Origin: Bacteroidales bacterium
Lineage (GTDB): Bacteria > Bacteroidota > Bacteroidia > Bacteroidales > UBA932
Length of the DNA: 55,390 nt
Assembly: GCA_017546585.1 (NCBI GenBank)
Contig: JAFYWC010000161.1
Span: forward strand, 1-55,390
Reading direction: 5' to 3'
Both the position numbers and the translations under genes were made by a program. This document shows positions 1 through 55,390 of the stretch, in pieces. The notes under the pieces are model-generated. The model worked only from the letters and a program-made list of their open reading frames with translations. It searched no databases and had not been told where the DNA came from. The stretch's first letter is position 1, and every line of letters begins with the position of its first letter.

Positions 1-333
1 TGAAGCGTAACGTGAACTTCCCTCGAGAGGATGACGCATCACGATCATATCCACGTAGTTGTCGACCATCTTGATTGTGTCCTTGAGTGTCTCGCCCTTG
101 CTCTGGCTGGTGTTGGTCGCATCCGAGAAGCCGATCACCTTTGCGCCGAGACGGTTGATGGCAGTCTCGAAGCTGAGTCTTGTTCTTGTCGAAGGCTCGA
201 AGAAAAGGCTCGCGATGACCTTGCCTTCAAGGAATTTCTGCTCTCTGTTCTGCTCGAACTCCTTAGCGGTTTCAAGCACGTGCAGGATCTCCTCCTTGGT
301 GAAATCCCTGATTGAAATCAAACTTTTCGCCAT
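1..333 (-). CDS. pyrB: Aspartate carbamoyltransferase catalytic chain, N-terminal part (runs off window)
   Basis: Catalyses carbamoyl phosphate + L-aspartate to N-carbamoyl-aspartate, the first committed step of pyrimidine synthesis, in the cytoplasm. Only the first 111 codons are present because the gene runs off the left edge. The translation starts [16 protein letters not shown] and carries the carbamoyl-phosphate loop [12 protein letters not shown] near residues 45-56, which is diagnostic of the family. ATG at 331-333 is the natural start; there is no Shine-Dalgarno sequence, as usual in Bacteroidota. It lies 11 bases downstream of yigZ on the same strand and is probably cotranscribed with it. 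Confidence 0.93.
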
Positions 334-344
334 ATGTATATAAT

Positions 345-959
345 TTAAATTTCTTCAACGTGGCATCCTTCGACGTCGCCTATGCGCTCGAGGAAGGTCT
401 CCACAAGGGACAGGCGCACGCTGGTGTCAAGGCTGCACTCCATATCGAACTGCTGGTTTCTCTGCTCGAGCCCCATATCCTTGAATACCTTCATCACGCT
501 GTTCATACCCATATATCCGAAATGTACACGGTACATCTTGGATGCGATCTTCTCGACGATCTCCGCATTCGCTATCGCGTCTGCCGTCGCCGTCTTGTAT
601 GCCCTGATCAGCCCCGGGATGCCGAGCTTGATGCCTCCGAAATAGCGGACCACCACCACGAGGATGTCGCTCAGCCCGTTGGAATCTATCTGTCCGAGCA
701 CCGGCCTTCCTGACGAGCCTGACGGCTCTCCGTCATCGTTCGCACGGAACTTGTCACCCAGGTATCCGAGCCTGTATGCATATACGTGATGCCTCGCGTC
801 GTAGTACTCTTTCTTGAGCGCTGCGACGATTTCCTTCACCTCTTCTTCTGTTTCAACGGGATATGCGTGGGCAATGAATCGGCTTCCATTGTCCTTGAAC
901 AGCCCCCTCGATTCGGCGGCTATGCTTTTGAATGAATCTTGGATCTGAGTGTTATCCAT
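345..959 (-). CDS. yigZ: YigZ / IMPACT family protein
   Basis: A 204-residue protein of the YigZ/IMPACT family, whose bacterial members have no firmly established biochemical role; the eukaryotic relative IMPACT is a translation regulator. The N-terminal family motif is visible as HHVYAYRLG followed by [15 protein letters not shown] and then [20 protein letters not shown]. The C-terminal half is the ferredoxin-like DUF1949 region. An alternative ATG at 969-971 would add four residues, but it overlaps a TAnnTTTG box at 969-976, so I use 959. It is the upstream gene of a likely yigZ-pyrB operon. Confidence 0.88.
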
Positions 960-968
960 ACCGAAAAT

Positions 969-976
969 CAAATGTA
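969..976 (-). promoter_or_regulatory. Candidate -7 box for yigZ-pyrB
   Basis: Reads TACATTTG on the minus strand, matching the Bacteroidota TAnnTTTG -7 consensus. I see no TTTG at the expected 19-21 base distance upstream. Its position would put the transcript start almost at the ATG at 959, giving a very short leader. Confidence 0.35.
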
Positions 977-1019
977 CGGAAAAATCTTGTATCTACAGCC
1001 ACAAATGAAGAAAATTTAT

Positions 1020-1027
1020 TATCTTTG
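1020..1027 (+). promoter_or_regulatory. Candidate -7 box for the 1085 gene-miaA pair
   Basis: TATCTTTG matches TAnnTTTG and lies about 57 bases before the ATG at 1085. No clear -33 TTTG is seen at the usual distance. Confidence 0.5.
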
Positions 1028-1084
1028 ACATCGCTTCTGGTAACCTGGAGGCTATTTTTATGTGTGTTACAATTCTAACTGTCT

Positions 1085-1621
1085 ATGATACTGAAATATA
1101 GAGTTTCCCTTCCCGGACTTAAGGGCTTTGCGCGTGTTTATGAGGTGAAAGGCAGCGCTTCGCTTTACAGCCTTCACAAACAGATGAGGGCCGATATGGA
1201 CTTCCCACAGGATCAGGTTGTACTTTTCAAGGCGTTCGACAGCAAGGGCAATGTCGCTGCGCGCTACAGCGTTTTCCAGGACTTCGGCTTCGGCACAATC
1301 GACCACGTTACTGCTGAGCAGTGCCACAAGAGGGGAGAGGATAAATTCATCTATTTCTATGACACAACCAACGTAAAGAGCGTAATCGTGACTTTCGAAG
1401 GCGTAGGCGAGGAACGCAAGAACGTGGTTTATCCGCTTCTTGTAGAGACAAAGGGTCCTAACCCTATCGAGTTCGAGAACGGATACGTTGCATTCGAGGA
1501 CCTTCCGGACGACAAGAAGAAGGATCCGGATGATGAGGACTTCGAGGACGATGACGACGATGTTGATGTAGAAGAGGACGACGAGACTGAAGAAATCTAC
1601 GGAGAGGACGATGACGAGTAG
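1085..1621 (+). CDS. pRiA4b ORF-3-like acidic protein, function unknown
   Basis: A 178-residue cytoplasmic protein with no signal peptide or membrane segment. The first ~130 residues resemble the plasmid pRiA4b ORF-3 / IS1096 passenger-like fold (PF07929) in layout: an N-terminal strand, SLYSLHKQMRADMDFPQDQ, then the later KFIYFYDTTN and VVYPLLVETKGPNP. The last ~45 residues are almost entirely Asp/Glu, with runs such as EDDDDDVDVEEDDE, probably disordered. It overlaps miaA by 11 bases, so the two are likely translationally coupled. The family call rests on overall pattern only; the function is unknown. Confidence 0.6.
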   Translation: MILKYRVSLPGLKGFARVYEVKGSASLYSLHKQMRADMDFPQDQVVLFKAFDSKGNVAARYSVFQDFGFGTIDHVTAEQCHKRGEDKFIYFYDTTNVKSVIVTFEGVGEERKNVVYPLLVETKGPNPIEFENGYVAFEDLPDDKKKDPDDEDFEDDDDDVDVEEDDETEEIYGEDDDE

Positions 1622-2477
1622 AAAACTGGTTATAATATTGGGGCCGACTGCTGTAGGCAAGACCGACTACAGCATCGAGACTGCGCTCCGATATGACTCG
1701 CCGATAATATCTTGCGACTCGCGTCAGATATATAAGGAAATGACAATCGGCACTGCTGTGCCTTCTGCTGAACAGCTCTCTGCTGTTCAGCATTATTTTA
1801 TCCATTCACATACGGTCAAAGATCTGTACACTGCCGGAAAGTACGAACTGGAGGCTCTGGAACTCATCAACCGTCTTTTTGATGAGGGACACGAGACCCT
1901 GGTGATGGCCGGCGGTTCGGGCTTCTATATCGATGCCCTTGTGAATGGTCTGGACGACTTCCCGTCTGCGGACCTTCAGCTCAGAGGAGAACTGATGGAT
2001 CGTCTGAAGAATGAAGGCGTGGAGTCACTCCGTATGGAACTCAAGGCTCTTGATCCGGAGAGCTACGCTACCATCGACATAGCGAACGGACAGAGAGTTG
2101 TGCGTGCGCTCGAGGTGTGCCTGATGACAGGCAAGCCGTTCTCCTCATTCAAGACATCATCAAAGAAGAAGCGCGACTTCGAAGTGGAGAAGATCGGACT
2201 CACACGTCCTCGTGACGTGCTCTACGACCGCATCGACAGACGTGTCATCCAGATGGTTGACGAAGGACTTGTGGAAGAGGTCAGAGGACTGCAGCAATAC
2301 AAAGACCTTGCAGCCCTCCAGACGGTGGGCTACAAGGAAATATTCGATTGGTTCGACGGTAATCTTGAAAGTCTTGACCGCGCTGTAGAACTCATTCAGC
2401 GCAACACCCGCAGATATGCAAAGCGCCAGTTGTCTTACTGGGGACGTGACAAGGAAATCAAGTGGATGGAACTTTAG
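1611..2477 (+). CDS. miaA: tRNA dimethylallyltransferase
   Basis: Transfers a dimethylallyl group from DMAPP to N6 of A37 in tRNAs reading UNN codons, the first step toward ms2i6A. The 288-residue length is close to family norm. The P-loop GPTAVGKT is at residues 11-18, and the substrate-binding CDSRQIY motif follows at 35-41. Later motifs include GGSGFYIDALVNG and the C-terminal QRNTRRYAKRQLSYW, which contacts tRNA. The start at 1611 lies inside the preceding gene. Its stop shares four bases (TTAG, 2474-2477) with the converging recQ stop. Confidence 0.96.
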   Translation: MTSRKLVIILGPTAVGKTDYSIETALRYDSPIISCDSRQIYKEMTIGTAVPSAEQLSAVQHYFIHSHTVKDLYTAGKYELEALELINRLFDEGHETLVMAGGSGFYIDALVNGLDDFPSADLQLRGELMDRLKNEGVESLRMELKALDPESYATIDIANGQRVVRALEVCLMTGKPFSSFKTSSKKKRDFEVEKIGLTRPRDVLYDRIDRRVIQMVDEGLVEEVRGLQQYKDLAALQTVGYKEIFDWFDGNLESLDRAVELIQRNTRRYAKRQLSYWGRDKEIKWMEL

Positions 2478-4675
2478 TTCGCCACTTCGCAAAGGAACTT
2501 GATGCGGACAAGACGTACTTCCATCTCGTCGTAGTCGTCACGCAGATCCTCCATCACGGTAGCAAGGTCGTCTGACTCGGCCTCATCGTGGAAGTAGTCA
2601 TAGATCTCGTCGATTACATCCTCGTCCAGAGTCTGCTCGAGATAATAATCCAGGTTCAGCTTGGTTCCCGAATATACGATGGCCTCGATCTCGTCCATCA
2701 GCTCTTCCATCTCCATCTTCTTCGCGTCGGCGATATCCTCGAGAGGAAGTCTCCTGTCGATACTCTGGATGATGAACACCTTGTTCACCGACTTGTTCAC
2801 GATGGACTTCATCACGAAGTCGTCAGGACGATCTATCTCATTCTCTTCCACATATTTGGCAATCAGTTCGAGGAATTCCTTTCCGAACTTCTTCGCCTTT
2901 CCTTCGCCGACTCCCTGACAGTTCTTCAGCTCGTCCACGGTGATAGGATACATAATGGACATATCTTCCAGCGACGGGTCTCCGAAGATCACCCACGGCT
3001 GCAGACCTTTCTTCTTCGCGACTTCCCTGCGCAGATCCTTCAGCATCGCAAGCAGCGTCGGGTCTCCTCCGCCACCGCGCGCAGCTGCCGCTGCTGCAGC
3101 GTTGTCGTCGTCGTCATCCTCGCCGTCCGCGAACTCCCTGTCTTCGGTAAGCATAAGCTCGTACGGCTTCTCATAGAATGCACGTCCGAGATCGGTCACC
3201 GAAATGAGACCGTATGCCTCGATGTCCTTGTGCAGGAAGTGAAGCACGAGTCCCTGATGGATGACTGCATTCCAGAATCTTACGGAGTGCTCCTTGCCGG
3301 CTCCGAACAGTTCCAGTCTGTCGTGGTGGTATGACTTTATTATAGAGTTCATCTCGCCTGCAAGAATGTTCGCGAGATGTTCCATCTTGAATCTTTCAGG
3401 CAGCGATTCCACGAGCTCGAGGATCATAGACATCTCCTCGCGTCCGTCGAACTGCTTCTTAGGGTGCAGGCAGTTGTCGCAGGCTCCGCAGTTCTCGACG
3501 TGGTAGTCCTCTCCGAAGTAGTTCAGCAGAAGCTTTCTGCGGCAGGAGTTGGATTCCGCATATGCGACAGTCTCCACGAGCAGCTGCTTTCCGATCTCCT
3601 GCTCGGCGATCGGCTTGCCCTGCATAAACTTCTCCAGCTTCTGGATGTCCTTGTAGCTGTAGAATGTGATGCAGTGGCCCTCGCGTCCGTCTCGTCCGGC
3701 GCGTCCGGTCTCCTGGTAATATCCTTCGATGCTCTTAGGAATGTCGTAGTGGATCACGAATCTCACATCCGGCTTGTCGATACCCATACCGAACGCGATT
3801 GTGGCCACGATCACGTCCACCTCTTCCATAAGGAACTTGTCCTGGTTGTCTGCGCGTGTCTTCGCGTCCAGACCTGCGTGATATGGTGCGGCCTTGATTC
3901 CGTTGATGTTGAGCAGCTCGGCCAGCTCTTCCACCTTCTTTCTGCTGAGGCAGTAGATGATGCCCGACTTGCCCGGATTCTGCTTGATGTATTTGATGAT
4001 GTCCCTCTTAGGGTCTGACTTGTCCCTGATTTCGTAGTGAAGGTTCGGGCGGTTGAACGAAGACTTGAAGACTGTTGCGTCGCTCATACCGAGGTTCTTG
4101 AGGATGTCGCTCTGCACTTTAGGTGTCGCGGTCGCTGTGAGGGCGATTATCGGAGCCACGCCTATCTCCTCCACGATGTTGCGGATACGGCGGTACTCCG
4201 GACGGAAGTCGTGTCCCCACTCTGAAATACAGTGTGCCTCGTCTACGGCATAGAAAGAGATCTTGATCTCTTTGAGCATTGCCACGTTCTCGGCCTTGGT
4301 CAGCGATTCCGGTGCGACATACAGGAGCTTTGTGGCTCCGGAAAGCAGGTCGTTGCGTACTTCTGTGATCTGTGCCTTGTTCAGGGATGAGTTCAGGAAA
4401 TGGGCTATGCCGTCGTTGCCGGCCACGAATCCTCTGATGGCATCGACCTGGTTCTTCATAAGGGCGATGAGAGGGGATATCACGATGGCTGTTCCTTCCA
4501 TAACAAGCGCAGGAAGCTGGTAGCACAGCGATTTGCCGCCACCTGTAGGCATAAGTACAAAGGCATTGTTCTTGTCGACGAGATGTCTTATGATACGTTC
4601 CTGATCGGCCTTGAAAGAATCGAAGCCAAAAAACTCCTTGAGTTTAGCGTGAAGCACAGAAGAATCGATAGCCAT
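2474..4675 (-). CDS. recQ: ATP-dependent DNA helicase RecQ
   Basis: A 733-residue 3'-5' superfamily 2 helicase for recombination and replication repair. Walker A MPTGGGKS is at residues 42-49 and DEAH at 145-148, followed by CISEWGHDFRPEYR. The helicase C domain has ATIAFGMGIDKPDVRFVIH and QETGRAGRDG. The zinc subdomain CRRKLLLNYFGE...CGACDNC sits near 380-405, and an HRDC domain near 545-615. A low-complexity acidic-Ala-Gly linker (GEDDDDDN, seven Ala, RGGGG) precedes the HRDC. About 110 extra residues after it match the C-terminal extension usual in Bacteroidota RecQ. Confidence 0.96.
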   Translation of the reverse strand: MAIDSSVLHAKLKEFFGFDSFKADQERIIRHLVDKNNAFVLMPTGGGKSLCYQLPALVMEGTAIVISPLIALMKNQVDAIRGFVAGNDGIAHFLNSSLNKAQITEVRNDLLSGATKLLYVAPESLTKAENVAMLKEIKISFYAVDEAHCISEWGHDFRPEYRRIRNIVEEIGVAPIIALTATATPKVQSDILKNLGMSDATVFKSSFNRPNLHYEIRDKSDPKRDIIKYIKQNPGKSGIIYCLSRKKVEELAELLNINGIKAAPYHAGLDAKTRADNQDKFLMEEVDVIVATIAFGMGIDKPDVRFVIHYDIPKSIEGYYQETGRAGRDGREGHCITFYSYKDIQKLEKFMQGKPIAEQEIGKQLLVETVAYAESNSCRRKLLLNYFGEDYHVENCGACDNCLHPKKQFDGREEMSMILELVESLPERFKMEHLANILAGEMNSIIKSYHHDRLELFGAGKEHSVRFWNAVIHQGLVLHFLHKDIEAYGLISVTDLGRAFYEKPYELMLTEDREFADGEDDDDDNAAAAAAARGGGGDPTLLAMLKDLRREVAKKKGLQPWVIFGDPSLEDMSIMYPITVDELKNCQGVGEGKAKKFGKEFLELIAKYVEENEIDRPDDFVMKSIVNKSVNKVFIIQSIDRRLPLEDIADAKKMEMEELMDEIEAIVYSGTKLNLDYYLEQTLDEDVIDEIYDYFHDEAESDDLATVMEDLRDDYDEMEVRLVRIKFLCEVAN

Positions 4676-4827
4676 AACCTGTAATTTGTTTACTAAGTTA
4701 ACTCAAAATTTCTGTAAATACCAAAAAAAACTGCCAAAAGCAGACTGCATTCAGGCGCGCTGAAGATTAATCTTTGAGATAGATTAAGTAATATGTGAAT
4801 ATAGGTAGCGCGAATTCAAAAAATCGT

Positions 4828-4848
4828 TATATTTGCGCGATATATTTG
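4828..4848 (+). promoter_or_regulatory. Two tandem TAnnTTTG boxes before the FKBP lipoprotein gene
   Basis: TATATTTG occurs at 4828-4835 and again at 4841-4848, 13 bases apart, 31-51 bases before the ATG at 4879. Either could be the -7 element. No good -33 TTTG is seen for either. Confidence 0.5.
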
Positions 4849-4878
4849 AAATTATCAACAAATAAATAGAACAAAACA

Positions 4879-5628
4879 ATGAAAACTATCAAGATTATTG
4901 CAGCAGCTCTCGCAGCTATGACAATGGTTATGTCTTGCCAGAGCCAGGGAAGCTCAGAACTTAAGAATATGCTTCCTAAGTCTTCTGAGATCGATTCAGT
5001 AAGCTACCTCGTAGGTATCCAGCTCGGTTCTTTCCTCAAGGGTCAGCTCGCAGTGAAGGACGCTTCTGAGCTCAACTTCGCAGAGGTTAAGAAGGGTATG
5101 AACGACATCATCAAGAACGAGGATCCTAAGGGTTACAACGACACTACTTTCGCTAAGCAGTTCAAGGTAAGCCCATACGAGATGCAGAAGGTTCTCGGCG
5201 CTTACATCCAGAAGAAGATGGACTACACTGCAGAGAAGAACCGTCTCGAGGGTGAGAAGTTCCTCGGCGAGAACGGCCTCAAGGCTAACGTAGGTACTAC
5301 AGAGAGCGGTCTCCAGTACACTATCATCGCAGAGGGTGCTGCTGAGAAGATCGGTCCAAGAGATACAGTATGGGTAAACTACAAGGGTACTCTCCTCGAC
5401 GGTAAGGTATTCGACGAGAACGACTCTACTCAGTTCGTAGCAAACAGAGTGATCAAGGGTTGGACAGAGGGTCTCGGTCTCCTCGGTGAGGGCGGAAAGG
5501 CTACTCTCTACATCCCTAGCGACCTCGCTTACGGTCAGAGAGGAACTCGTGGCATCGAGCCTAACTCAACTCTCATCTTCGACGTTGAGGTCCTCAAGGT
5601 AGGTAAGTTTATGCCTAAGGAAGACTAA
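4879..5628 (+). CDS. FKBP-type peptidyl-prolyl isomerase, lipoprotein
   Basis: A 249-residue exported prolyl isomerase thought to help fold periplasmic or outer-membrane proteins. The N-terminus is a lipoprotein signal peptide ending in VMSC, with Cys20 as the lipidated residue. Residues ~35-125 form the helical FKBP N-terminal dimerisation domain (SYLVGIQLG, QKKMDYTAEKNRLEG). The FKBP catalytic domain follows from ~140 (SGLQYTIIAEG, VNYKGTLLDGKVFD, LAYGQRGTRGIEPNSTLIF). Strongly biased codon use suggests high expression. The DUF3127 gene follows six bases after its stop. Confidence 0.93.
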   Translation: MKTIKIIAAALAAMTMVMSCQSQGSSELKNMLPKSSEIDSVSYLVGIQLGSFLKGQLAVKDASELNFAEVKKGMNDIIKNEDPKGYNDTTFAKQFKVSPYEMQKVLGAYIQKKMDYTAEKNRLEGEKFLGENGLKANVGTTESGLQYTIIAEGAAEKIGPRDTVWVNYKGTLLDGKVFDENDSTQFVANRVIKGWTEGLGLLGEGGKATLYIPSDLAYGQRGTRGIEPNSTLIFDVEVLKVGKFMPKED

Positions 5629-5634
5629 TTTATA

Positions 5635-6033
5635 ATGGCAATGGAACTCGAGGGCAGAATTGCCCGCAAACTCAGTGTCCAGTCAGGCACATCCGCAAGG
5701 GGAGCCTGGTCAAAGCAGGAGTTCATCTTCGAGTATCAGGAAGGAAACTTCCCGACTCAGGTATGTATGAACGTCTGGGGCGAGGACAAAGTCAAGGATC
5801 TGGAGAGATACCAGGTCGGCGACAAGGTGAAGGTCTCGTTCAATCTCAGCAGCCGTGAATTCAACGGCCGTTGGTACACAGATGTAAGAGCCTGGAGAAT
5901 CGAGCCTGCGAATGCAGCTCCGGCACCGGCTCGCGACTATGCTCAGCCAGCAGGCTTCGCTCCGTCGGCTGCGCCGATGCCGAGCATCGAAGATATGCCG
6001 GCAGAACTTTCGGACGACGATCTTCCGTTCTAG
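5635..6033 (+). CDS. DUF3127 domain protein (OB-fold-like)
   Basis: A 132-residue cytoplasmic protein. Residues ~3-88 match DUF3127, a Bacteroidota family predicted to have an OB fold: an initial ELEGRIARKL strand, SKQEFIFEY, CMNVWGEDKVKDL, and the signature FNLSSREFNGRWYTDVRAWR. The C-terminal ~40 residues are Pro/Ala-rich and end in an acidic tail, SDDDLPF. That tail looks like the acidic tip of single-stranded-DNA-binding proteins that recruits partners; this resemblance is my inference. ATG codons at 5635 and 5641 are both possible starts. A strong terminator follows. Confidence 0.85.
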   Translation: MAMELEGRIARKLSVQSGTSARGAWSKQEFIFEYQEGNFPTQVCMNVWGEDKVKDLERYQVGDKVKVSFNLSSREFNGRWYTDVRAWRIEPANAAPAPARDYAQPAGFAPSAAPMPSIEDMPAELSDDDLPF

Positions 6034-6056
6034 GAATTGCCATCAGGACAATATGC

Positions 6057-6085
6057 AAAGAGCCTCACTTTATGTGGGGCTCTTT
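6057..6085 (+). terminator. Intrinsic terminator after the FKBP-DUF3127 pair
   Basis: A 12-base stem (AAAGAGCCTCAC / GTGGGGCTCTTT, one T-G pair) with loop TTTAT, followed by a T-containing stretch. It starts 24 bases after the DUF3127 stop. Confidence 0.85.
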
Positions 6086-6106
6086 CGTATTATTATAAAA
6101 AAGTCT

Positions 6107-6114
6107 TAAATTTG
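6107..6114 (+). promoter_or_regulatory. Candidate -7 box for the DUF308 gene-dnaG
   Basis: TAAATTTG, 27 bases before the ATG at 6141 and just after the preceding terminator. The -33 position holds TTTC rather than TTTG. Confidence 0.5.
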
Positions 6115-6140
6115 CATCTCTTGATTTCAAACGGAACACT

Positions 6141-6740: not shown

Positions 6741-6743
6741 AAT

Positions 6744-11042: not shown

Positions 11043-13334
11043 ATGAGCAAGACATTCAACAGAACTCTTGTGACCTGCGCGCTTCCATACGCCAACGGTC
11101 CGGTTCACATCGGCCACCTGGCTGGTGTCTATGTGCCAGCGGATATCTATGTGAGATATCTCAGAATGAGAGGTGAGGACGTGCTTTACGTGTGCGGATC
11201 GGATGAGCACGGAGTTCCTATCACCATCAAGGCGCAGAAGGAGGGATGCACTCCTCAGGATATCGTGGACAGATATCACAAGATCATCAAGGATTCTTTC
11301 ACAGGCCTTGGTATCAACTTCGACATATATTCAAGAACATCTTCAAAGACTCATCACAAGAACGCTGCGGACTATTTCCGCAAGCTTTATGATGAGGGCA
11401 AGTTCATCGAGAAGGTGAGCGAGCAGTACTACGACGAGGAGACAAAGACTTTCCTCGCAGACCGCTACATCACCGGTACCTGCCCACGCTGCGGTGCAGA
11501 GGGCGCATACGGTGACCAGTGCGAGAAGTGCGGCGCTACTCTCAGCCCGGATGAACTCATCAACCCTAAGTCGGCTCTCAGCGGCGGCGAGCTCGTGAAG
11601 AAGGAGACCAAGCACTGGTACCTTCCGCTCGACCAGTATGAGAAGTGGCTCTCCGAGTGGATCCTCGACGGACACAAGGAGTGGAGAAGCAACGTATACG
11701 GCCAGTGCAAGAGCTGGATCGACGGCGGTCTCCAGCCACGTGCGGTGAGCCGCGACCTCAACTGGGGTGTTCCTGTACCTGTAGAGGGATCAGACGGAAA
11801 GGTTCTCTATGTGTGGTTCGATGCTCCTATCGGATATATCTCAAACACTCAGGAACTCCTCCCTCAGAGCTGGGAGAAGTGGTGGAAGAGCGAGGATACA
11901 AAGCTCGTCCACTTCATCGGAAAGGACAACATCGTGTTCCATTGCATCGTGTTCCCTTCTATGCTGAAGGCTGACGGAAGCTACATCCTTCCGGACAACG
12001 TTCCTGCAAACGAGTTCCTCAACCTCGAGGGCGACAAGATCTCGACATCACGCGGATGGGCTGTATGGCTCCACGAGTACCTCGAGCAGTTCCCTGGACA
12101 GGAGGACGTTCTCCGCTACGTTCTTACTGCGAACGCTCCTGAGACAAAGGATAATGATTTCTCTTGGAAGGACTTCCAGGCACGCAACAACAGCGAGCTC
12201 GTTGCCATCCTCGGCAACTTCGTGAACCGTGCCGTTGTTCTTACACACAAATATTTCGAGGGCAAGGTTCCTGCCGACCTCAAGCCGGAGGCAGTGGATG
12301 CTGAGACACTCGCTCAGATCCAGCCGCTCCGCGAGGCTATGGAGAAGTATCTCGAGGGATACAAGTTCCGTGAGGCTCTCAAGGAGGCAATGAACATCGC
12401 CCGTCTCGGAAACAAATATCTTACAGACACAGAGCCTTGGAAGGTTGCCAAGACAGATATGGACAGAACCGCTTCTATCCTGAACGTCTCTCTCCAGATC
12501 TGCGCTTCGCTCGCGATCGCATTTGAGCCGTTCCTTCCGTTCTCGGCAGAGAAGCTCCGCAACATCCTCAATGTGGGCATCGTAGCAGGTGCTGACCACC
12601 GTGCAGGTGAGGAATTTACTGTCATCCCGAGCGAAGTCGAGGGATCTGCATACGTTAATCGCTACACTGCAGCAGAGGGTGCTGCTCTCCATACATCTTC
12701 ACGTCATTGCGAGGAGCAGAGCGACGTGGCAATCTCACTTTCTTGGGAGGATCTCGGAAAGGCGGTTCTTCTTCCTGCAGGCCACCAGCTCAACCCTGCA
12801 ACACTCCTCTTCGGCAAGATCGAGGATGAGGTCGTAGATGCGCAGATCGCACGTCTCGAGGCAATCCGTGCAGAGCGTGAGGCTGCTGCAAAGGCCGAGG
12901 CCAAAGCCTCGACCTCGGAGTCTCAACCCCCTGCACCCCCTACAGGGGGATCTCCGGACTACCCGTCCGGGTCGCAAAGCGACTTGTTAACCCCCGCACC
13001 ACAGAAGGAGGAGTGTACTTTCGATGACTTCGGCAAGATGGACATCCGTACTGCAACAGTTCTTGAGGCAGAGCGTGTCCCTAAGACTGACAAGCTCCTC
13101 AAGCTGACTATCGACACTGGTATCGACAAGAGAGTCATCGTGTCAGGTATCGCTGAGCAGTATTCTCCGGAGGAGATGGTAGGAAAGCAGATCTGTATTC
13201 TTGCCAACCTTGCTCCACGCAAGATTCGTGGCATCGAGTCGAAGGGTATGATTCTTATGGCTCGTCAGAATGACGGAAAGATGAGATTCATCACTCCGCA
13301 GGAGACTCTCTGCAACGGTGCCGAAATCGGATAA
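11043..13334 (+). CDS. metG: Methionine-tRNA ligase with C-terminal tRNA-binding domain
   Basis: Charges tRNA-Met. The 763-residue protein has the HIGH motif at 22-25 ([10 protein letters not shown]), a two-knuckle zinc insertion (CPRC...CEKC, ~145-160), KISTSRG as the KMSKS equivalent (~335), an anticodon-binding helical domain, and a C-terminal tRNA-binding OB domain ([20 protein letters not shown]). The start is the ATG at 11043, giving [19 protein letters not shown]. Two linkers are odd: residues ~526-564 are translated REP-like repeats (VIPSEVEGS and [11 protein letters not shown]), and ~632-651 come from a hairpin-rich element ([16 protein letters not shown]). The frame stays open through both. 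Confidence 0.95.
12620..12647 (+). repeat. REP-like element in metG, copy 1
   Basis: Starts TGTCATCCCGAGCGAAGTCG and ends AGGGATCT. This is a dispersed repeat type known from many bacteria, usually intergenic. Here it is read in frame as VIPSEVEGS. The same consensus recurs at 49910-49937 and, more divergently, at 16444-16479. Confidence 0.8.
12702..12736 (+). repeat. REP-like element in metG, copy 2
   Basis: Starts CGTCATTGCGAGGAGCAGAG and ends GTGGCAATCTC, a second common dispersed-repeat flavour. Read in frame as [11 protein letters not shown]. It lies 54 bases after copy 1, and the ends can pair (GTCATTGC with GTGGCAATC, imperfect). Confidence 0.8.
12936..12995 (+). repeat. Multi-hairpin repeat element in metG linker
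   Basis: Three adjacent hairpins: CCCCC-TACA-GGGGG (12936-12949), CCGGAC-TACCC-GTCCGG (12954-12970) and GTCGC-AAA-GCGAC (12971-12983), then TTGTTAACCCCC. The density of perfect stems inside a coding linker suggests an inserted palindromic element, translated as [18 protein letters not shown]. Confidence 0.65.
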
Positions 13335-47545: not shown

Positions 47546-47566
47546 ATAACTTAAAATCAAATAATT

Positions 47567-48034: not shown

Positions 48035-48441
48035 TGCCTACAATTTTCACAAGAATCGCCAAGGGAGAGATTCCTTCTTATAAGGTTGCTGAGAACGATG
48101 AGTTCTACGCATTCCTTGATATTGCTCCTATGGCTAAGGGTCACACTCTCGTGATCCCTAAGAATGTGGAGGATGACTACATCTTCAATCTTGACGAGAA
48201 GACTTACCTCGGACTTTGCGCATTCGCAAAGAAGGTTGCAGAGGCCCTGAAGGCTGCCGTTCCTTGCAAGAGGGTAGGCGTTGCCGTTCTCGGTATGGAG
48301 GTTCCTCACACCCACATTCACCTTGTACCTCTCAACGTAGAGGCCGATATGGATTTCAGAAAACCAAAACTGGAGCTTTCGCAGGATGAGTTCTCTGCAA
48401 TAGCTTCTGCAATTTATGAGGAATATGTCAAGATTCAGTAA
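48034..48441 (+). CDS. HIT family nucleotide hydrolase
   Basis: A 135-residue histidine-triad protein, most like HinT-type purine nucleoside phosphoramidases. FTRIAKGEIPSYKVAENDEF opens the fold and the catalytic triad motif HTHIHLVP is near residues 93-100. The substrate in vivo is unknown. The start overlaps the greA stop; its end overlaps the next gene by 17 bases. Confidence 0.93.
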   Translation: MPTIFTRIAKGEIPSYKVAENDEFYAFLDIAPMAKGHTLVIPKNVEDDYIFNLDEKTYLGLCAFAKKVAEALKAAVPCKRVGVAVLGMEVPHTHIHLVPLNVEADMDFRKPKLELSQDEFSAIASAIYEEYVKIQ

Positions 48442-49564
48442 ATTCGTTATGCTTGCTGCCGTGGCGTTCGCGTCGGCAGCCTGCGGTCAGAAGGCGGTGG
48501 TCGAGGGAAGCCTCGAGTCTGCTCCTTCATCGGAAGTAATCGTTAAGCTTTTGGATGCCAACAAGTTCACTGTGCTCGATACAGTATCGGTGAGCGCTGC
48601 AGGAAAGTTCACCTACAAGATGGATATGCAGAAGGGTCATCCGGAGTTTGTATATGTGTTCTACAAGGACACCAAGATCGCTTTGCTTCTTCTTGAGGCC
48701 GGCGACAAGGTAAACGTCGTTGCAGATACACTCGGAACTTATACAATAGAGGGCTCTGAGGAGTCTGCCAAGCTTGCTCAGGTAGAGAAGGAGTACGCTG
48801 CGGCTCTCGGCCGTTTCGCAGTGCTCGCGTCGCGCCTTGAGGCTGCGCCGGAGTCTGCTCAGGCAGAGATCGCGCGCGAGATGACCAACGACTATGTAAA
48901 GTACTATAGAGAGCGTGTGAAGTATGTTCTCGAGAACGCGAAGTCAATGAGCGTTGTGCCTGTGCTTTACCAGTCTTTCGGTGACAACCTTCCGTTGTTT
49001 GCACAGAACACTGACGCGATCATCTTCTCGACTGTCGCTGACAGCCTCGAGACTGTATATCCTGAATCAAAGTATGTGAAGGCTATCAGAACTGAAGCGG
49101 AGAAGCGTTTCGGATATCTTGATCTTCAGAACCGTCTCAACCAGGCTGTGGAGATCGGATATTTCGATGTGGAACTTCCTGATGTGAATGCCAAGAATGT
49201 TAAACTCAGCGACGTTGAGTCAAAGGTTGTTATGCTTTACTTCTGGAGCGCAGAGTCTGCAGAGCAGAACCACTTCAACACATCTGTCCTCAAGCCTATC
49301 TATGCGGATTACCACAAGAAGGGTCTTGAGATCTATCAGGTGTCGCTTGATACAGACAAGGCTCTCTGGGCTACAACAATCAAGTCTCAGGATCTTCCTT
49401 GGATCAATGTGTGCGATGCACGCGGCGTGGCTTCGCCATACGTTTCGCTTTACAACATTGCAGGCGTTCCTGCGATCTTCGTGATAAGCAACGGCGAACT
49501 CGTCGACGGCAAGGCAATCGACGAGGCTTCATTCAGAAAAATGCTGGATGGACTTTTAAAATAG
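48425..49564 (+). CDS. Lipoprotein with DUF4369-like and thioredoxin-like domains, no CxxC
   Basis: A 379-residue exported protein. The signal peptide MSRFSKFVMLAAVAFASAAC places the lipidated Cys at residue 20; ATG at 48416 is an alternative start. The N-terminal part (VVEGSLESAPSSEVIVKLLD) resembles DUF4369, and a helical middle region runs ~100-235. The C-terminal TlpA-like thioredoxin fold has VVMLYFWSAESAEQNHF where redox relatives have WCxxC, then IAGVPAIFVISNGELV with the cis-Pro. With no Cys at the active site it cannot be a classical disulfide enzyme. Its stop overlaps tsaB's stop by nine bases, tail to tail. Confidence 0.88.
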   Translation: MSRFSKFVMLAAVAFASAACGQKAVVEGSLESAPSSEVIVKLLDANKFTVLDTVSVSAAGKFTYKMDMQKGHPEFVYVFYKDTKIALLLLEAGDKVNVVADTLGTYTIEGSEESAKLAQVEKEYAAALGRFAVLASRLEAAPESAQAEIAREMTNDYVKYYRERVKYVLENAKSMSVVPVLYQSFGDNLPLFAQNTDAIIFSTVADSLETVYPESKYVKAIRTEAEKRFGYLDLQNRLNQAVEIGYFDVELPDVNAKNVKLSDVESKVVMLYFWSAESAEQNHFNTSVLKPIYADYHKKGLEIYQVSLDTDKALWATTIKSQDLPWINVCDARGVASPYVSLYNIAGVPAIFVISNGELVDGKAIDEASFRKMLDGLLK

Positions 49565-50254
49565 TTTCTTCTTGCTGACAGTAGCAACGAATTCTTTAAG
49601 ATAGAACGGTTCGAAGTACGCAACGTCTTCGAATCGTTTTTCTTTATATGCCTGCTGGGCAGGGGAGAGCATAGCTGATGCCTTTGGCCAGCACTGGCAG
49701 AAGCGCGCATTAGGATGCTTGATGACATCGGCGCATTTGCCTGCTCCGTCTCCGATGAAAAGGCATACTCCCTGCTCGAGATACTCTGCGAAGCTGTTCT
49801 CGTCGATGATTGCAGGCGCAGTCTCGGTGAGCTGCTGTCCGTTCTCGAACACTGCAGTGTACACTTCCATACGGCGCGCGTCGATCATCGGGATGATGAA
49901 GCGGAATGGAGCTCTCTCGGCTTCGCTCGGGGTGACAGAGGCAGCCTGGGCCACGAGAGTGTCGAGTGTGCCCACAGCGAGGAGCGGCTTCTGGGAACCG
50001 AAGCAGAGACCCTTGGCTGTAGATACGCCTACGCGAAGTCCGGTATATGAACCCGGGCCTTTGCTGACGCATACGGCGTCGCAGTCTGCGAGAGTGACGC
50101 CTCGCTCGGCGAGCATATCCTGGATGAAGACCGCTGTGAGCGATGCGTGTGCCTTAGGGGCAGAACTTTCCTTGTATGCAGTGATGACTCCGTCCTCTGC
50201 AAGTGCTGCAGAACAGAGTGCAGTCGATGTCTCTATGAGTATGATTCTTTCCAT
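49556..50254 (-). CDS. tsaB: tRNA t6A-synthesis protein TsaB
   Basis: Partner of TsaD in making N6-threonylcarbamoyl-A37 in ANN-decoding tRNAs. The 232 residues have the ASKHA fold: ILIETSTALCSAALAEDG, GPGSYTGLRVGVSTAKGL (~67-84) and IPMIDARRMEVYTAVF (~121-136). Residues 106-117 (SVTPSEAERAPF) are encoded by a REP-like element and fall in the loop before the PMIDARRMEV strand. The frame is intact, so the protein is probably functional. It follows cvpA by one base on the same strand. Confidence 0.93.
   Translation of the reverse strand: MERIILIETSTALCSAALAEDGVITAYKESSAPKAHASLTAVFIQDMLAERGVTLADCDAVCVSKGPGSYTGLRVGVSTAKGLCFGSQKPLLAVGTLDTLVAQAASVTPSEAERAPFRFIIPMIDARRMEVYTAVFENGQQLTETAPAIIDENSFAEYLEQGVCLFIGDGAGKCADVIKHPNARFCQCWPKASAMLSPAQQAYKEKRFEDVAYFEPFYLKEFVATVSKKKLF
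49910..49937 (-). repeat. REP-like element inside tsaB
   Basis: On the minus strand it begins TGTCACCCCGAGCGAAGCCG and ends AGAGAGCT. It differs from the metG copy 1 at only a few positions. In frame it encodes SVTPSEAERA. Confidence 0.8.
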
Positions 50255-50255
50255 A

Positions 50256-50750
50256 TTAGTTCCAGAAGAATATTTCCTTTAAGTATGGGAATGTTGTGTA
50301 TGCTATCTTTTTGAGCGGCGGATAAAGTACTGAATCAGCCAGCGCGCTTTCCTCCACGAAGTGGAATGACTCGTTGAGCGAGTTGAAGAGGATGATCATC
50401 AGGCCCACGATGAGAGCCGTCTTGAGAAATGCGAACAATACTCCGAGAAGTTTGTTCAGCCAGTTCAGCATCACCAGTTTCAGGATTCCCTCAAGAAGTT
50501 TTCCGATCAGTCCCAAAGCTGCAAATACACCGATGAGGATGAGGGCGAAGGCGGTGATCCTGAGTATTTCGCCTGATGCCTCGATGTGCTGCGCGAGCCA
50601 TTCGCTTGCAATGTTTGCAAATTCGAACGACGCCCAGACTCCGACTACAATCGATATGATTGCAATCACTTGGCTTATAAAGCCTTTCTTGAGTCCCTGC
50701 ACGAGAGCCGGTATGAAGCATATTAAAAGAATGATATCCAGTATGCTCAT
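50256..50750 (-). CDS. CvpA family membrane protein
   Basis: A 164-residue protein with four hydrophobic helices (LDIILLICFIPALVQGLK, VIAIISIVVGVWASF, FALILIGVFAALGLIGKLL, LFAFLKTALIVGLMIILF), the layout of the CvpA/colicin V production family. E. coli CvpA is named for colicin V secretion, but the general role is unclear. The GLKKGF after helix 1 is a family feature. It heads the cvpA-tsaB pair. Confidence 0.88.
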   Translation of the reverse strand: MSILDIILLICFIPALVQGLKKGFISQVIAIISIVVGVWASFEFANIASEWLAQHIEASGEILRITAFALILIGVFAALGLIGKLLEGILKLVMLNWLNKLLGVLFAFLKTALIVGLMIILFNSLNESFHFVEESALADSVLYPPLKKIAYTTFPYLKEIFFWN

Positions 50751-50768
50751 TATCTCATTAAAAATTAG

Positions 50769-50776
50769 TATATTTG
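50769..50776 (+). promoter_or_regulatory. Candidate -7 box for ileS
   Basis: TATATTTG, 59 bases before the ileS ATG at 50836. On the opposite strand TATTTTTG at 50810-50817 could serve cvpA. Neither has a -33 TTTG at the proper spacing. Confidence 0.5.
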
Positions 50777-50835
50777 CCGATTAAATTTTGGGTCGTACAA
50801 ACGACTATGCAAAAATAGACATTTTTAGATAAATT

Positions 50836-53800
50836 ATGGCATTTAAGGAATACAAAGGTCTCGATCTCGTGGCAGCAGGCAACGAGATACTCGACAGATG
50901 GAAGAAGAATCACGCATTCGAAAAGTCTCTTGAACTTAGGGAAGGTGCTCCGGAATTCATTTTCTTTGAGGGTCCGCCTTCAGCTAACGGTATGCCGGGC
51001 ATCCACCACGTGATGGCCCGTTCTATCAAGGATGCCATCTGCCGCTACAAGACCCAGAGCGGTTTCAAGGTCAACCGTCGTGCAGGTTGGGATACTCACG
51101 GTCTCCCTGTGGAGCTCGGCGTTGAGAAGATGCTTGGCATCACCAAGGAGGACATCGGTACAAAGATCACTGTGGAGGAGTACAACGACGCTTGCCGCAA
51201 GGAAGTGATGAAGTACACTGCAGAGTGGGTGAATATGACCGAGCGCGTAGGTTACTGGGTGGATATGAACGATCCGTACATCACTTACGACAACCGTTAC
51301 ATCGAGACTCTCTGGTATCTCCTTAAGAAGATCTACGACAAGGGTCTGCTCTACAAGGGCAAGTCTATCCAGCCATACTCTCCGGCTGCAGGTACAGGTT
51401 TGAGTACACACGAGCTCAACCAGCCTGGCTGCTACCGTGATGTGAAGGACACGACTGCCGTGGCTCAGTTCAAGGTGGTTCGTGACGAGAAGTCGGAGTT
51501 CCTTTACGAGCAGGGCGTTCAGCCATACTTCCTGGCTTGGACAACAACTCCTTGGACTCTCCCTTCAAACACAGCTCTCTGTGTGGGTCCTAACATCGAC
51601 TACGTAAGAGTACTTTCTACAAACCCATACACTGGCGAGGCTGGCCTCTACATCGTGGCTCAGGCGCTCGTCGGTGCACACTTCAATCCTAAGAAGCAGG
51701 AGTTCACTGTTCTCGAGGGCACACTCAAGGGCAGCGAGCTCACAGGCATCAGCTACGAGCAGCTCATTCCTTGGTTCAACCCTGGCGAGGGCGCATTCAA
51801 GGTGATCCCTGGTGACTATGTCACAACTGAGGACGGTACAGGTATCGTACACATCGCGCCTACATTCGGTGCTGATGACGCCAAGGTGGCTCGCGCTGCC
51901 GGCGTTCCTGGCCTCCAGGTGGTTGACCGCAACGGCGACCTCCAGGCTCAGGTGGACCTCAGAGGACGCTTCTTCTGCATCGAGGACCTCGATCCTGAGT
52001 ATGCTGCAGCGAATATGTCTCCGGACTACGCAGAGTGGGCTGGCCGCTATGTAAAGAATGCATACGACGCTACTCTCGACGCTGACGCTCCTACTCTTGA
52101 CGTTGACATCTGCGTTATGCTCAAGCAGCAGAACAAGGCGTTCAAGATCGAGAAGCATACACACAACTATCCACACTGCTGGCGTACCGACAAGCCGGTT
52201 CTCTACTATCCGCTCAACTCTTGGTTCATCAAGACTACCGCAGTACGCGAGAGAATGATGGCTCTCAACGAGGAGATTATGTGGAAGCCTGAGTCTACAG
52301 GTACAGGTCGTTTCGGCAAGTGGCTCGAGAATATCCAGGACTGGAACCTCTCACGTAGTCGCTACTGGGGTACTCCGCTCCCTATCTGGCAGACTGAGGA
52401 CGGAAAGGAAGCAAAGTGCATCGGTTCTATCGCAGAGCTCTATAATGAGATCGAGAAGGCTGTTGCTGCTGGCTTTATGACTGAGAACCCATTCGCTGCA
52501 AAGGGCTTCGATCCTGCAGATATGTCTAAGGAGAACTACGACAAGATCGATATCCACCGTCCATATGTGGACAACATCTTCCTCGTTTCAGACAGCGGCA
52601 AGAAGATGGTCCGCGAACTCGACCTCATCGACGTATGGTTCGACTCAGGTGCGATGCCATATGCACAGGAGGGTCTCCGCGGCATCGACTCTGAGAAGTT
52701 CGGCTGCACAGCAGACTTCATCGCAGAGGGTGTCGACCAGACACGCGGATGGTTCTACACACTCCACGCAATCAACACAATGGTCAGCGACAAGTGCGCG
52801 TTCAAGAGAGTCATCTCGAACGGTCTCGTGCTTGACAAGGACGGCAACAAGATGAGTAAGCGCCTCGGCAACGCCGTGGATCCGTTCTGGGCTCTCGATA
52901 CATACGGTGCAGATGCTCTCAGATGGTATATGCTTACAAACGCACAGCCTTGGGACAACCTCCGTTTCGACGTGACAGGTGTTGACGAGGTACGTCGTAA
53001 ATTCTTCGGAACACTTTACAATACATATTCATTCTTTGCTCTCTACGCAAACATTGACGGATTCGATCCTAAGGCAGAGGCAGTGCCTATGTCGGAGCGT
53101 CCTGAGATCGACAGATGGGTAATCTCTCTCCTCAACACACTCGTGAAGGATGTGGTTGCAGCTTATGAGGATTACGATATCACTACTGCAGGCCGTCTCA
53201 TCCAGGATTTCGTATGCGACAATGTAAGTAACTGGTACGTGCGTCTCGGCAGAAAGAGATTCTGGGGAGGCTCGATGGATACTGACAAGCTTTCTGCATA
53301 CCAGACACTCTATCAGGTGCTCGTGGCTGTAGCCAAGCTTGCTGCTCCTATCGCTCCATTCTTTATGGACCGTCTCTTCCTTGACCTCGTGGAGGGTGAG
53401 GAGTCAGTTCACTATGTTGCAATGCCGGCGTACGACGAGACTGTCGTAGACAAGGATCTCGAGGAGCGTATGGCACTCGCGCAGAGAGCGACTTCAATGG
53501 TTCTCGCTCTCAGACGTAAGGCTGAAATCAATGTCCGCAAGCCTCTCTCAAAGCTCATCATCCCTGTGATCGACGCAAAGGTGAAGGAACAGCTCGAGAA
53601 GGTGAAGGATCTCATCCTTACAGAGGTGAACGTAAAGGAGGCTGAGTTCATTTCAGATACTACAGGTCTGATCACCAAGAAGATCAAGCCTAACTTCAAG
53701 ACCCTCGGAAAGATCTACGGAAAGCAGATGAAGGAGATCGCCGCTGCGTTCGGAACACTTTCGCAGGAGGTAATCTCGGAAATCCAGGCTGCTGAGGTTT

Positions 53801-54225
53801 CTGGCACAGGATATGTCCTTGCTCTCGCTTCGGGAGATGTAACTCTCAACAAGGGAGATTACGAGATCTCGTCAGAGGATATGCCAGGCTGGCTCGTGGC
53901 TACTGAGGGTGCGATGACCATCGCTCTTGATGTTACCATCACTGAGGAACTCAAGCAGGAGGGTGTTGCACGTGAGCTCATCAACCGTATCCAGAACCTC
54001 CGCAAGACCAGCGGCTTCGACGTTACAGACAAGGTGGCTGTATGCATCTATGCTGACGGCGAGGATCTCGCAGAGATCGCTGCGTCACTTGCAAACTTCG
54101 CTGACTATGTGGCAGCCCAGACTCTTGCAGTGGCGGTTGAAAGCGCATCTCTCCAGGAGGCAGGCGATGCTCCTGAGGTAGAGTGGAACGAAGGCACAAT
54201 CAGAATTAAAGTAACTAAAAAATAA
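50836..54225 (+). CDS. ileS: Isoleucine-tRNA ligase, eukaryote-like (type 2) form
   Basis: Charges tRNA-Ile and edits valine. The 1129-residue protein has the class I site as PPSANGMPGIHHVMARSIKD (~50-70) and KMSKRLGN near 671; the editing domain includes AWTTTPWTLPSNTAL and GTGIVHIAPTFGADD. The pattern NLSRSRYWGTPLPIW and the GIHHV form of HIGH are those of type 2 (eukaryote-like) enzymes, which are generally insensitive to mupirocin. The C-terminal ~250 residues are the anticodon-binding and extra domains. The DksA-like gene follows seven bases on. Confidence 0.95.
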   Translation: MAFKEYKGLDLVAAGNEILDRWKKNHAFEKSLELREGAPEFIFFEGPPSANGMPGIHHVMARSIKDAICRYKTQSGFKVNRRAGWDTHGLPVELGVEKMLGITKEDIGTKITVEEYNDACRKEVMKYTAEWVNMTERVGYWVDMNDPYITYDNRYIETLWYLLKKIYDKGLLYKGKSIQPYSPAAGTGLSTHELNQPGCYRDVKDTTAVAQFKVVRDEKSEFLYEQGVQPYFLAWTTTPWTLPSNTALCVGPNIDYVRVLSTNPYTGEAGLYIVAQALVGAHFNPKKQEFTVLEGTLKGSELTGISYEQLIPWFNPGEGAFKVIPGDYVTTEDGTGIVHIAPTFGADDAKVARAAGVPGLQVVDRNGDLQAQVDLRGRFFCIEDLDPEYAAANMSPDYAEWAGRYVKNAYDATLDADAPTLDVDICVMLKQQNKAFKIEKHTHNYPHCWRTDKPVLYYPLNSWFIKTTAVRERMMALNEEIMWKPESTGTGRFGKWLENIQDWNLSRSRYWGTPLPIWQTEDGKEAKCIGSIAELYNEIEKAVAAGFMTENPFAAKGFDPADMSKENYDKIDIHRPYVDNIFLVSDSGKKMVRELDLIDVWFDSGAMPYAQEGLRGIDSEKFGCTADFIAEGVDQTRGWFYTLHAINTMVSDKCAFKRVISNGLVLDKDGNKMSKRLGNAVDPFWALDTYGADALRWYMLTNAQPWDNLRFDVTGVDEVRRKFFGTLYNTYSFFALYANIDGFDPKAEAVPMSERPEIDRWVISLLNTLVKDVVAAYEDYDITTAGRLIQDFVCDNVSNWYVRLGRKRFWGGSMDTDKLSAYQTLYQVLVAVAKLAAPIAPFFMDRLFLDLVEGEESVHYVAMPAYDETVVDKDLEERMALAQRATSMVLALRRKAEINVRKPLSKLIIPVIDAKVKEQLEKVKDLILTEVNVKEAEFISDTTGLITKKIKPNFKTLGKIYGKQMKEIAAAFGTLSQEVISEIQAAEVSGTGYVLALASGDVTLNKGDYEISSEDMPGWLVATEGAMTIALDVTITEELKQEGVARELINRIQNLRKTSGFDVTDKVAVCIYADGEDLAEIAASLANFADYVAAQTLAVAVESASLQEAGDAPEVEWNEGTIRIKVTKK

Positions 54226-54232
54226 TAACACT

Positions 54233-54643
54233 ATGGCAGAAGAAATGAAGAACGCACCTGAATTCAAGGTACGATACAGTGACGAGGAGCTCCAGGAGTT
54301 CAAGGCCATCATTATCGAAATGCTTGAGAAGGCAAAGAGTGAATACAAGCACCTTCGCGATATCATTACACACGATTCAAGCAACGATATCGAGGATACA
54401 TCACCTACATTCAAGATTATGGAGGAAGGCGCTACAGCTCTCTCTAAGGAGGAGGCAGGTGCACTCGCACAGCGTCAGTACAAGTTCATCCAGAACCTTG
54501 AGGCAGCTCTTATCAGAATCGAGAACAAGACATACGGAGTATGCCGTATGACAGGAAAGCTCATCCCTAAGGAGAGACTCCGTCTTGTACCTCACGCAAC
54601 CCTTACCGTTGAGGCTAAGGAGATGATGAACAAGAACAAGTAA
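54233..54643 (+). CDS. TraR/DksA family protein with degenerate zinc finger
   Basis: A 136-residue protein with the DksA layout: two helices forming a coiled coil (ELQEFKAIIIEMLEKAKSEY and KFIQNLEAALIRIENKTYG) with an acidic tip region, then the finger YGVCRMTGKLIPKERLRLVP. DksA fingers use four Cys; here only the first is present, which is the pattern I expect in Bacteroidota members of the family. It probably binds RNA polymerase through the secondary channel; ppGpp dependence is unknown. It lies between ileS and lspA. Confidence 0.9.
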   Translation: MAEEMKNAPEFKVRYSDEELQEFKAIIIEMLEKAKSEYKHLRDIITHDSSNDIEDTSPTFKIMEEGATALSKEEAGALAQRQYKFIQNLEAALIRIENKTYGVCRMTGKLIPKERLRLVPHATLTVEAKEMMNKNK

Positions 54644-54649
54644 GCCTTT

Positions 54650-55243
54650 ATGAGACTTTCAAAAGGTAAGTGGCTTGTAATATTAGGAGCGTTGCTCGTT
54701 GTGCTTGACCAGGTGATCAAATACCTGGTCAAGACAAATATGGACCTTGGCGAGACCATCGATGTGATCGGTGAGTGGTTCAAGCTCCATTTTGTACTCA
54801 ACAAGGGAATGGCATTCGGAATGGCATTCGGTGGACTCGTAGGAAAGGTGGCCCTTTCGCTTTTCAGGATCGTCCTCTTTGGCTTCCTGTTCTGGTGGAT
54901 CGGCAAGCTTGCGCGTCGCAAGGATGTTCCAACCGGAGTGCTTGTCGGTCTTACAATGATCACCGCAGGAGCATTCGGAAACATCATCGACTGCTTCTTC
55001 TACGGACTGATCTGGCCGGAGACCATCACGCCGGGAGCGCCGTTCGCGTTTATGTTCGGACAGGTTGTGGATATGTTCTACTTCCCGCTCTTCGACTATA
55101 AACTCCCTTGGATGGAGTATCCGCGCACCTTCTTCGGAGCAGTATTCAACTTCGCAGACAGCTGTGTAACCTGCGGTGCGATCTACCTGTTACTGTTCCA
55201 ATACAAGTTTTTTGCAAAAGAAGAAGAAAAAGTTGCAAAATAA
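54650..55243 (+). CDS. lspA: Lipoprotein signal peptidase
   Basis: Cleaves signal peptides from prolipoproteins, so it would process the lipoproteins encoded here. The 197 residues have four membrane helices; catalytic Asp114 is in GNIIDCFFYG and Asp170 in FNFADSCVTCG, with NKGMAFG as the conserved NxGxAFG. A 12-base direct repeat (GGAATGGCATTC, twice from about 54808) gives the GMAFGMAF doublet. It is adjacent to ileS, as lspA often is, with the DksA-like gene in between. Confidence 0.95.
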   Translation: MRLSKGKWLVILGALLVVLDQVIKYLVKTNMDLGETIDVIGEWFKLHFVLNKGMAFGMAFGGLVGKVALSLFRIVLFGFLFWWIGKLARRKDVPTGVLVGLTMITAGAFGNIIDCFFYGLIWPETITPGAPFAFMFGQVVDMFYFPLFDYKLPWMEYPRTFFGAVFNFADSCVTCGAIYLLLFQYKFFAKEEEKVAK

Positions 55244-55274
55244 TTTGCAGGTTTAAAAAATATTCGTACCTTTG
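55244..55274 (+). promoter_or_regulatory. Promoter of tRNA-Ser
   Basis: TTTG at 55244-55247, 19 bases, then TACCTTTG at 55267-55274. This is a full match to the TTTG-N19-TAnnTTTG Bacteroidota consensus, 27 bases before the tRNA. A small CCCTT / AAGGG hairpin sits in the leader at 55279-55292. Confidence 0.82.
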
Positions 55275-55301
55275 CAATCCCTTACAAAAGGGAACAATAT
55301 T

Positions 55302-55386
55302 GGAGAGATGGCAGAGTGGTCGAATGCGGCGGTCTTGAAAACCGTTGACCTTCACGGGTCCGGGGGTTCGAATCCCTCTCTCTCCG
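55302..55386 (+). tRNA. tRNA-Ser(UGA)
   Basis: 85 bases to the discriminator. Acceptor stem GGAGAGA pairs with TCTCTCC, discriminator G at 55386. The anticodon loop reads CTTGAAA, giving anticodon UGA. A long variable arm, as required for Ser, follows (TTGACCTTCACGGGTC), and the T arm is GGGGGTTCGAATCCC. The 3' CCA is not encoded. Confidence 0.96.
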
Positions 55387-55390
55387 CAAA

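Follow-up and report, generated by a model that had tools for sequence, protein, structure and literature searches.

The four-base palindrome CATG is absent from the window, by which we mean the whole stretch of DNA analysed: the 55,390 bases of contig C117 (positions 1..55390) in a gut metagenome-assembled genome (MAG) of 2.49 Mb (163 contigs, 95.6% complete). We consider it probable that a Type II restriction system that cuts CATG, most likely one of the NlaIII/IceA kind carried by sister genomes, imposed the selection that purged the chromosome of CATG. With such a system, incompletely methylated CATG sites would be cut now and then, synonymous substitutions that abolish a site would be favoured, new sites would be removed, and DNA acquired later would keep its CATG as islands. 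From its sequence, the genome likely belongs to the Candidatus Cryptobacteroides group: the closest public metG loci came from Bacteroidales MAGs, many of whose titles point to ruminants or horses, and 5 of 80 were named Candidatus Cryptobacteroides, mostly at 75-77% identity in metG.

CATG in the window and in the rest of the genome

We counted CATG on both strands of the window and found none, while 249.6 copies (sd 15.2) were expected from 100 dinucleotide shuffles of the 55,390 bases and 235 from a Markov estimate based on three-base counts. The absence claimed in an earlier note on this DNA, made from the letters alone, was thus borne out by computation (0 versus 235-250 expected). That note had also held that palindromes in general are not avoided. 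Indeed all 15 other four-base palindromes occur in the window, and we rejected general palindrome avoidance from counts there and in other stretches of the same genome. The next scarcest palindrome was CTAG, rare yet present as the note had described (4 versus 62 expected). Across the genus CTAG is low as well, with a median of 0.07 of expectation in 80 loci, and this scarcity is a trait separate from the loss of CATG and probably older.

The ban on CATG shapes codon use before methionine, again as first read by eye. Phenylalanine before methionine was encoded by TTT in 16 of 16 cases, despite the TTC majority elsewhere in the window (TTT 89, TTC 634), and the codons of asparagine (AAT, 16/16), aspartate (GAT, 32/32), tyrosine (TAT, 17/17) and histidine (CAT, 7/7) in this position all ended in T. 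The C-ending codons of isoleucine, serine (AGY) and cysteine were never used before methionine in the window, and histidine preceding a codon that starts with G was always CAC (92/92). Outside 39 chosen open reading frames (ORFs), the remaining 5,065 bases likewise contained no CATG (17.7 expected). Nine proteins of the window were scanned and all belonged to known families, recQ, dnaG, metG, murA, dnaX and xseA among them. An artefact of assembly or library preparation might be suspected, as this genome and its relatives are MAGs or of unnamed source; we regard it as extremely improbable, given that these nine proteins fall into known families, that CATG is swapped for synonyms and that MAGs with accessions from different studies show the same loss.

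Outside the window, we sampled 80 stretches of the same genome, of which 63 were readable (818 kb; the other 17, from contigs shorter than 3 kb, read as N). The 632 kb outside CATG clusters contained 30 CATG, compared with ∼2685 at the rate expected in the window, and 26 of the 63 stretches (375 kb), chosen for holding none, had 0 versus 1797 expected. The clusters made up ∼186 kb of the 818 kb and had observed/expected ratios from 0.29 to 1.65. The expectation that CATG would be low beyond the window thus applies to the 632 kb, but the genome is not uniform. In contigs C45, C23, C73, C20 and C152, CATG-rich islands are joined directly to CATG-free DNA, and some whole contigs keep a more normal CATG density. 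Of ten proteins examined from six contigs with CATG, eight had Pfam matches, including an IS1595 transposase and TraM of a conjugative transposon. The simplest reading is that the islands are DNA that arrived recently. Their presence indicates that CATG is now either methylated or no longer cut in this genome. At one end of contig C152 (locus L179, 12.7-16.2 kb), CATG-rich DNA with the core genes for phosphofructokinase, Dus and LpxK is fused to CATG-free DNA; this end may have come from a relative, or the contig may be chimeric.

How and when CATG was lost

We compared the window with ten outgroups and recorded what replaces each outgroup CATG, which yielded 497 cells that are pooled over the outgroups and not independent. 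In the frame CAT|G the window had CACG in 99 of 124 cells; in xCA|TGx it had CTTG in 36 and CCTG in 33 of 99 cells; and in xxC|ATG it had TATG in 145, GATG in 42 and AATG in 25 of 274 cells. In every frame the main replacements altered the third base of a codon; taking both codons together, 351 of the 497 cells were synonymous. Because the replacements differ by frame and take the silent exit, they point to selection and not to one type of mutation: selection removed CATG by synonymous changes in each of the three frames. Mutational decay without selection, in which the methylated C deaminates and CATG becomes TATG or CATA, could draw on the excess of these two words in the window (166 of 541 replacements, compared with 200 of 1723 changes among the outgroups). 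However, a change of C to T is always silent in xxC|ATG, so TATG is also predicted under selection, while the changes of T to C in CAT|G (99/124) and of A to T or A to C in xCA|TGx (69/99) are not deaminations of C. Deamination would yield TATG or CATA whatever the frame; the frame-by-frame spectrum rules it out as the cause, and we give decay of this kind next to no credence.

The age of the loss can be bracketed with relatives, which were compared over as much as 20 kb around metG (methionyl-tRNA synthetase; 11046..13334 on the + strand, NCBIfam methionine--tRNA ligase), the marker used for aligning relatives and for the tree of CATG loss; identities are over aligned bases. The closest sister, G176 (93% identity), contained no CATG (∼90 expected), whereas ten more distant relatives (77-82% identity) had normal counts of 59 to 121 CATG each. 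The loss therefore falls between these splits and is recent in the lineage. The selection had been called long-lived in the earlier note, which is wrong for this lineage. Intermediate loci exist too, such as L227, which is near this genome in metG (28/69), with CATG sparser in its second half.

Selection also acted until lately. This genome and G176 differ by 1312 coding substitutions, and random placement of that many changes among equivalent sites would give rise to ∼23 new CATG; none was seen. Had selection stopped, ∼0.3% divergence would account for the 30 CATG in the 632 kb, assuming that all 30 are point mutations. The same result bears on a barrier effect, in which incoming CATG-containing DNA would be restricted and frequent homologous recombination would spread CATG-free alleles with little self-cutting. 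Such a barrier would be in keeping with the mosaic contigs, which suggest exchange, and with the CATG-avoiding phages described below. However, the absence of new CATG relative to G176 fits self-cutting better, and DNA from cells with the same system would arrive methylated and pass, which also counts against a barrier. We rate this explanation as improbable.

The phages in question are related to contig C158 (locus L120), which is assigned to the host by binning alone and carries phage-type replication genes and a methyltransferase gene; its CATG count was 3 versus 48 expected. In L120 the methyltransferase gene and a NUMOD4/HNH homing-type gene lie between the segments of a phage-type DNA polymerase III alpha gene. 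In 14 closely related loci (on 12 viral contigs; 86-99% protein identity) CATG ranged from 0.04 to 0.29 of expectation, and most of this group avoid ACGT too. In 30 more distant phage loci the range was 0.31-1.34, with 14 loci at 0.75 or above and 16 in between. Strong CATG avoidance is thus confined to the close phage group.

NlaIII-family cassettes and the search for the agent

We searched 400 genomes of the genus with the profile of the NlaIII family (ICEA, PF05315) and found matches in four: G153, G235, G392 and G432. The matches in G153, G235 and G432 covered the full profile, with E-values down to 6e-120. In G153 the ICEA gene (E 2.9e-114) lies between genes for a PF01555-type and a D12 (PF02086) methyltransferase, in a cassette split over contigs C58 and C77; G235 and G432 carry the same three genes. 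In G392 the contig ends within the ICEA gene, and its D12 neighbour is present. IceA1 is given as 52% identical to NlaIII in PMC2749054, and the CATG specificity of NlaIII and IceA1-HpyI (Neisseria, Helicobacter) is stated in titles of references in PMC2749054 and PMC3261200; the text of PMC3261200 terms the NlaIII gene product CTAG-specific, which we take as a slip. As in these systems, G153, G235 and G432 have a full-length predicted ICEA enzyme beside a putative D12 adenine methyltransferase, and the enzyme of the sister genomes would accordingly be expected to cut CATG. The Cryptobacteroides cassettes also contain the PF01555-type methyltransferase gene, a possible difference from the systems of Neisseria and Helicobacter. 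ICEA relatives were found neither in the phages and viral contigs searched nor among solved structures; one 32% match lies on a Priestia plasmid.

Three of the four carriers are CATG-poor, a label for which we set cut-offs of 0.35, 0.3 or 0.25, the first chosen by eye. The observed/expected CATG counts were 3/91, 4/60 and 3/60 in G153, 2/72 and 0/50 in G235, and 1/53 and 1/42 in G392. In G432 CATG is still common despite ICEA (37/60 and 26/30), which fits a recent acquisition of the cassette. Compared with 6 of 80 unselected loci, the carriers are enriched in CATG-poor genomes (Fisher p 0.003). The cassettes of G235 (L371), G153 (L374) and G432 (L372), 61-69% identical, contain one CATG each, at the same His-Gly codon pair in the first methyltransferase gene, in G432 as in the CATG-poor G235 and G153; this conserved site may serve self-regulation or be due to chance.

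Several observations weigh against a restriction system of this kind as the cause. Compared with 12 of 73 genomes, the carrier association reaches only p 0.02, and it concerns four carriers whose kinship is uncorrected. Unlike the hosts of NlaIII and IceA1-HpyI, the genome of the window lacks matching genes: a profile search of it gave no ICEA match, and no remnant of the cassette was found by tblastn in 818 kb of its sequence. ICEA was also missing from nine other CATG-poor genomes, including G022 and G030 at 95-97% completeness, D12 methyltransferases were missing from 16 of 19 CATG-poor genomes, and none of four methyltransferase families gave a match in G030 (97% complete). Phages of the wider group often avoid CATG mildly, with only 14 of 30 loci reaching 0.75 of expectation. 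Furthermore, where AGCT is the scarce palindrome, genomes other than the one with a candidate C5 methyltransferase locus have no close copy of that locus.

No agent was found in the other families searched. The search for a CATG methyltransferase or HNH nuclease that the earlier note had proposed came back empty, as the genome of the window gave no match to PF05315, D12 (PF02086) or HNH (PF01844). D12 was present in three of the 19 CATG-poor genomes (G031, G153 and G200; the copy in G200 adjoins a DpnII enzyme). Other methyltransferases occurred in 8 of 15 (N6_N4, one below the cut-off), 3 of 16 (C5) and 5 of 16 (N6) CATG-poor genomes; among the genomes tested, neither HNH nor N6_N4 (PF01555), C5 (PF00145) or N6 (PF02384) tracked the loss of CATG. 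The genome of the window has one PF00145 methyltransferase beside a SacI-type enzyme, one of PF01555 on the phage-type contig and one of PF02384 on contig C37. The SacI-type restriction pair (locus L062, contig C73, 1.3-3.5 kb) is situated in an island that contains CATG, and GAGCTC is not depleted (166 versus 148 expected); we rejected the pair as the cause, and the abundance of its site suggests that it was acquired recently.

We also scanned proteins with PADLOC within a size range of 130 or 150 to 600 residues. The families listed for 296 proteins of CATG-free stretches (25 of 47 and 25 of 55) included no Type II restriction enzyme, and weak Type II enzymes may lie outside these lists. The scans also covered 136 proteins from CATG-bearing stretches (25 of 89 families listed); the stretches of this genome contain 683 ORFs in all. 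The size range excluded 56 proteins of the CATG-free stretches and, out of 155 island proteins, 19; some of the excluded proteins were covered by a separate scan. PADLOC is blind to ICEA, as it gave no match even for the G153 enzyme, so these scans could not have revealed an ICEA gene.

A nuclease that cuts CATG but is not recognised by such searches, perhaps without a methyltransferase partner, would also account for the loss, with cells surviving because the sites are gone. The PF05315 search of 45 genus genomes speaks for it, as none matched, the 10 CATG-poor ones included, with no control genome giving a match. So do the genomes in which methyltransferases are missing: G030 and G043 (89% complete) had no match in four families and G130 (99%) none in the three tested, and the AGCT-poor G014 (70% complete) had no C5 methylase match. 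However, such a nuclease would cut the islands in C45, C23, C73, C20 and C152 if they were unprotected, and the PADLOC families listed for the CATG-free stretches included no Type II enzyme. We consider this unlikely. UpaP162 is described in PMC6191088 as an enzyme for CATG that is not homologous to any known one, and CATG systems thus need not resemble NlaIII.

For restriction with NlaIII specificity, the cause suggested in the earlier note, the synonymous losses, the bias towards palindromes and the presence of ICEA in three CATG-poor sisters argue in favour, while the agent was not found in the genome. We infer that the lineage once carried the same cassette as its sisters and that the cassette was lost lately or lies on unbinned DNA. 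The CATG-poor genomes in which no agent was found would be explained if the system had been lost, if it lay on unbinned plasmids or if a nuclease of an unrecognised kind were at work.

Recurrent palindrome loss in the genus

In a wider comparison, the pattern CATGN12CAT was below 0.35 of control in 12 of 73 genus genomes (including that of the window) and in none of 47 from other families. In 80 metG loci, with CTAG excluded, a value under 0.3 of the median for the genus was reached in 13 of 1157 tests of palindromes (CATG 6, AGCT 3, GATC 2, CGCG 1, TTAA 1), compared with 1 of 9564 tests of non-palindromes. A metG tree of 110 rows, 14 of them CATG-poor at the 0.25 cut-off, required 10 label changes, at least 6 of which are forced by well-supported branches; the tree was made by a quick method from the best aligned segment only, has several long branches and omits 11 rows with identical metG. 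Judging from these sequences, CATG loss is patchy and recurrent in the genus, and some sisters appear to have lost CATG or another palindrome independently.

The palindromic nature of the lost words bears on selection at the RNA level, for example by an endoribonuclease that cuts CAUG in transcripts. A palindrome reads alike on both strands, so strand bias is uninformative about this idea. The lost words of the genus, however, are palindromic bar the single test in 9564, as expected for targets in double-stranded DNA, and the bases outside the chosen reading frames of the window, though perhaps partly transcribed, also lack CATG. We hold RNA-level selection to be highly implausible.

AGCT was scarce at L078 (G185; 0/44), L182 (G014; 6/37), L229 (4/73), L244 (3/67) and L301 (13/47), and at L088 (G043) both CATG (1/72) and GATC (1/63) are nearly gone. 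Within the AGCT-free locus of G185, a C5 methyltransferase gene adjoins one for an unassigned 302-residue protein; the methyltransferase had no match in the genomes of G014, L229 and L244. Locus L210 was weakened as a candidate AGCT system, since it had no match in the AGCT-poor G014, G204 and G205 and only a 36% partial match in G203. It is conceivable, though we doubt it, that nucleases of the genus repeatedly erase four-base palindromes, fast and nearly in full, without leaving a recognisable methyltransferase, the host being protected by its siteless genome.

Avoidance of Type II sites is well documented: Rusinov et al. 2015 (PMC4687349) report it for 47.9% of orthodox site-genome pairs and read avoidance without a matching system as the trace of a lost system. 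The present case resembles that avoidance in that a four-base palindrome is scarce in the host, with a matching system in sisters and possibly none in the genome itself. It differs in degree from the cut-off ratio of that survey (0.78), with 0 over 55 kb and ∼0.01 outside islands. It also differs in that the loss was reached after the splits at 77-82% identity and was repeated in the genus with different words. The scarcity of GTAC in Helicobacter and Campylobacter with PabI-family restriction glycosylases (PMC10273834) is similar in that one palindrome is rare and a toxic restriction enzyme is invoked; it concerns another word and enzyme family, while the loss of CATG is young and occurs patchily in closely related species. 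Literature searches for absent words, palindrome avoidance and Cryptobacteroides restriction-modification gave no direct precedent or report among the matches listed.

The loss of CATG is thus a known phenomenon, restriction-site avoidance, in an unusually complete, recent and recurrent form. The harm that a restriction system does to its own host and the speed at which it reshapes a genome are hard to measure. Close species with and without the loss and with and without the enzyme, together with the carrier G432 in which CATG is still common, form a natural time series. Moreover, CATG in a CATG-free chromosome marks DNA that arrived after the loss and may offer a simple clock for gene transfer.

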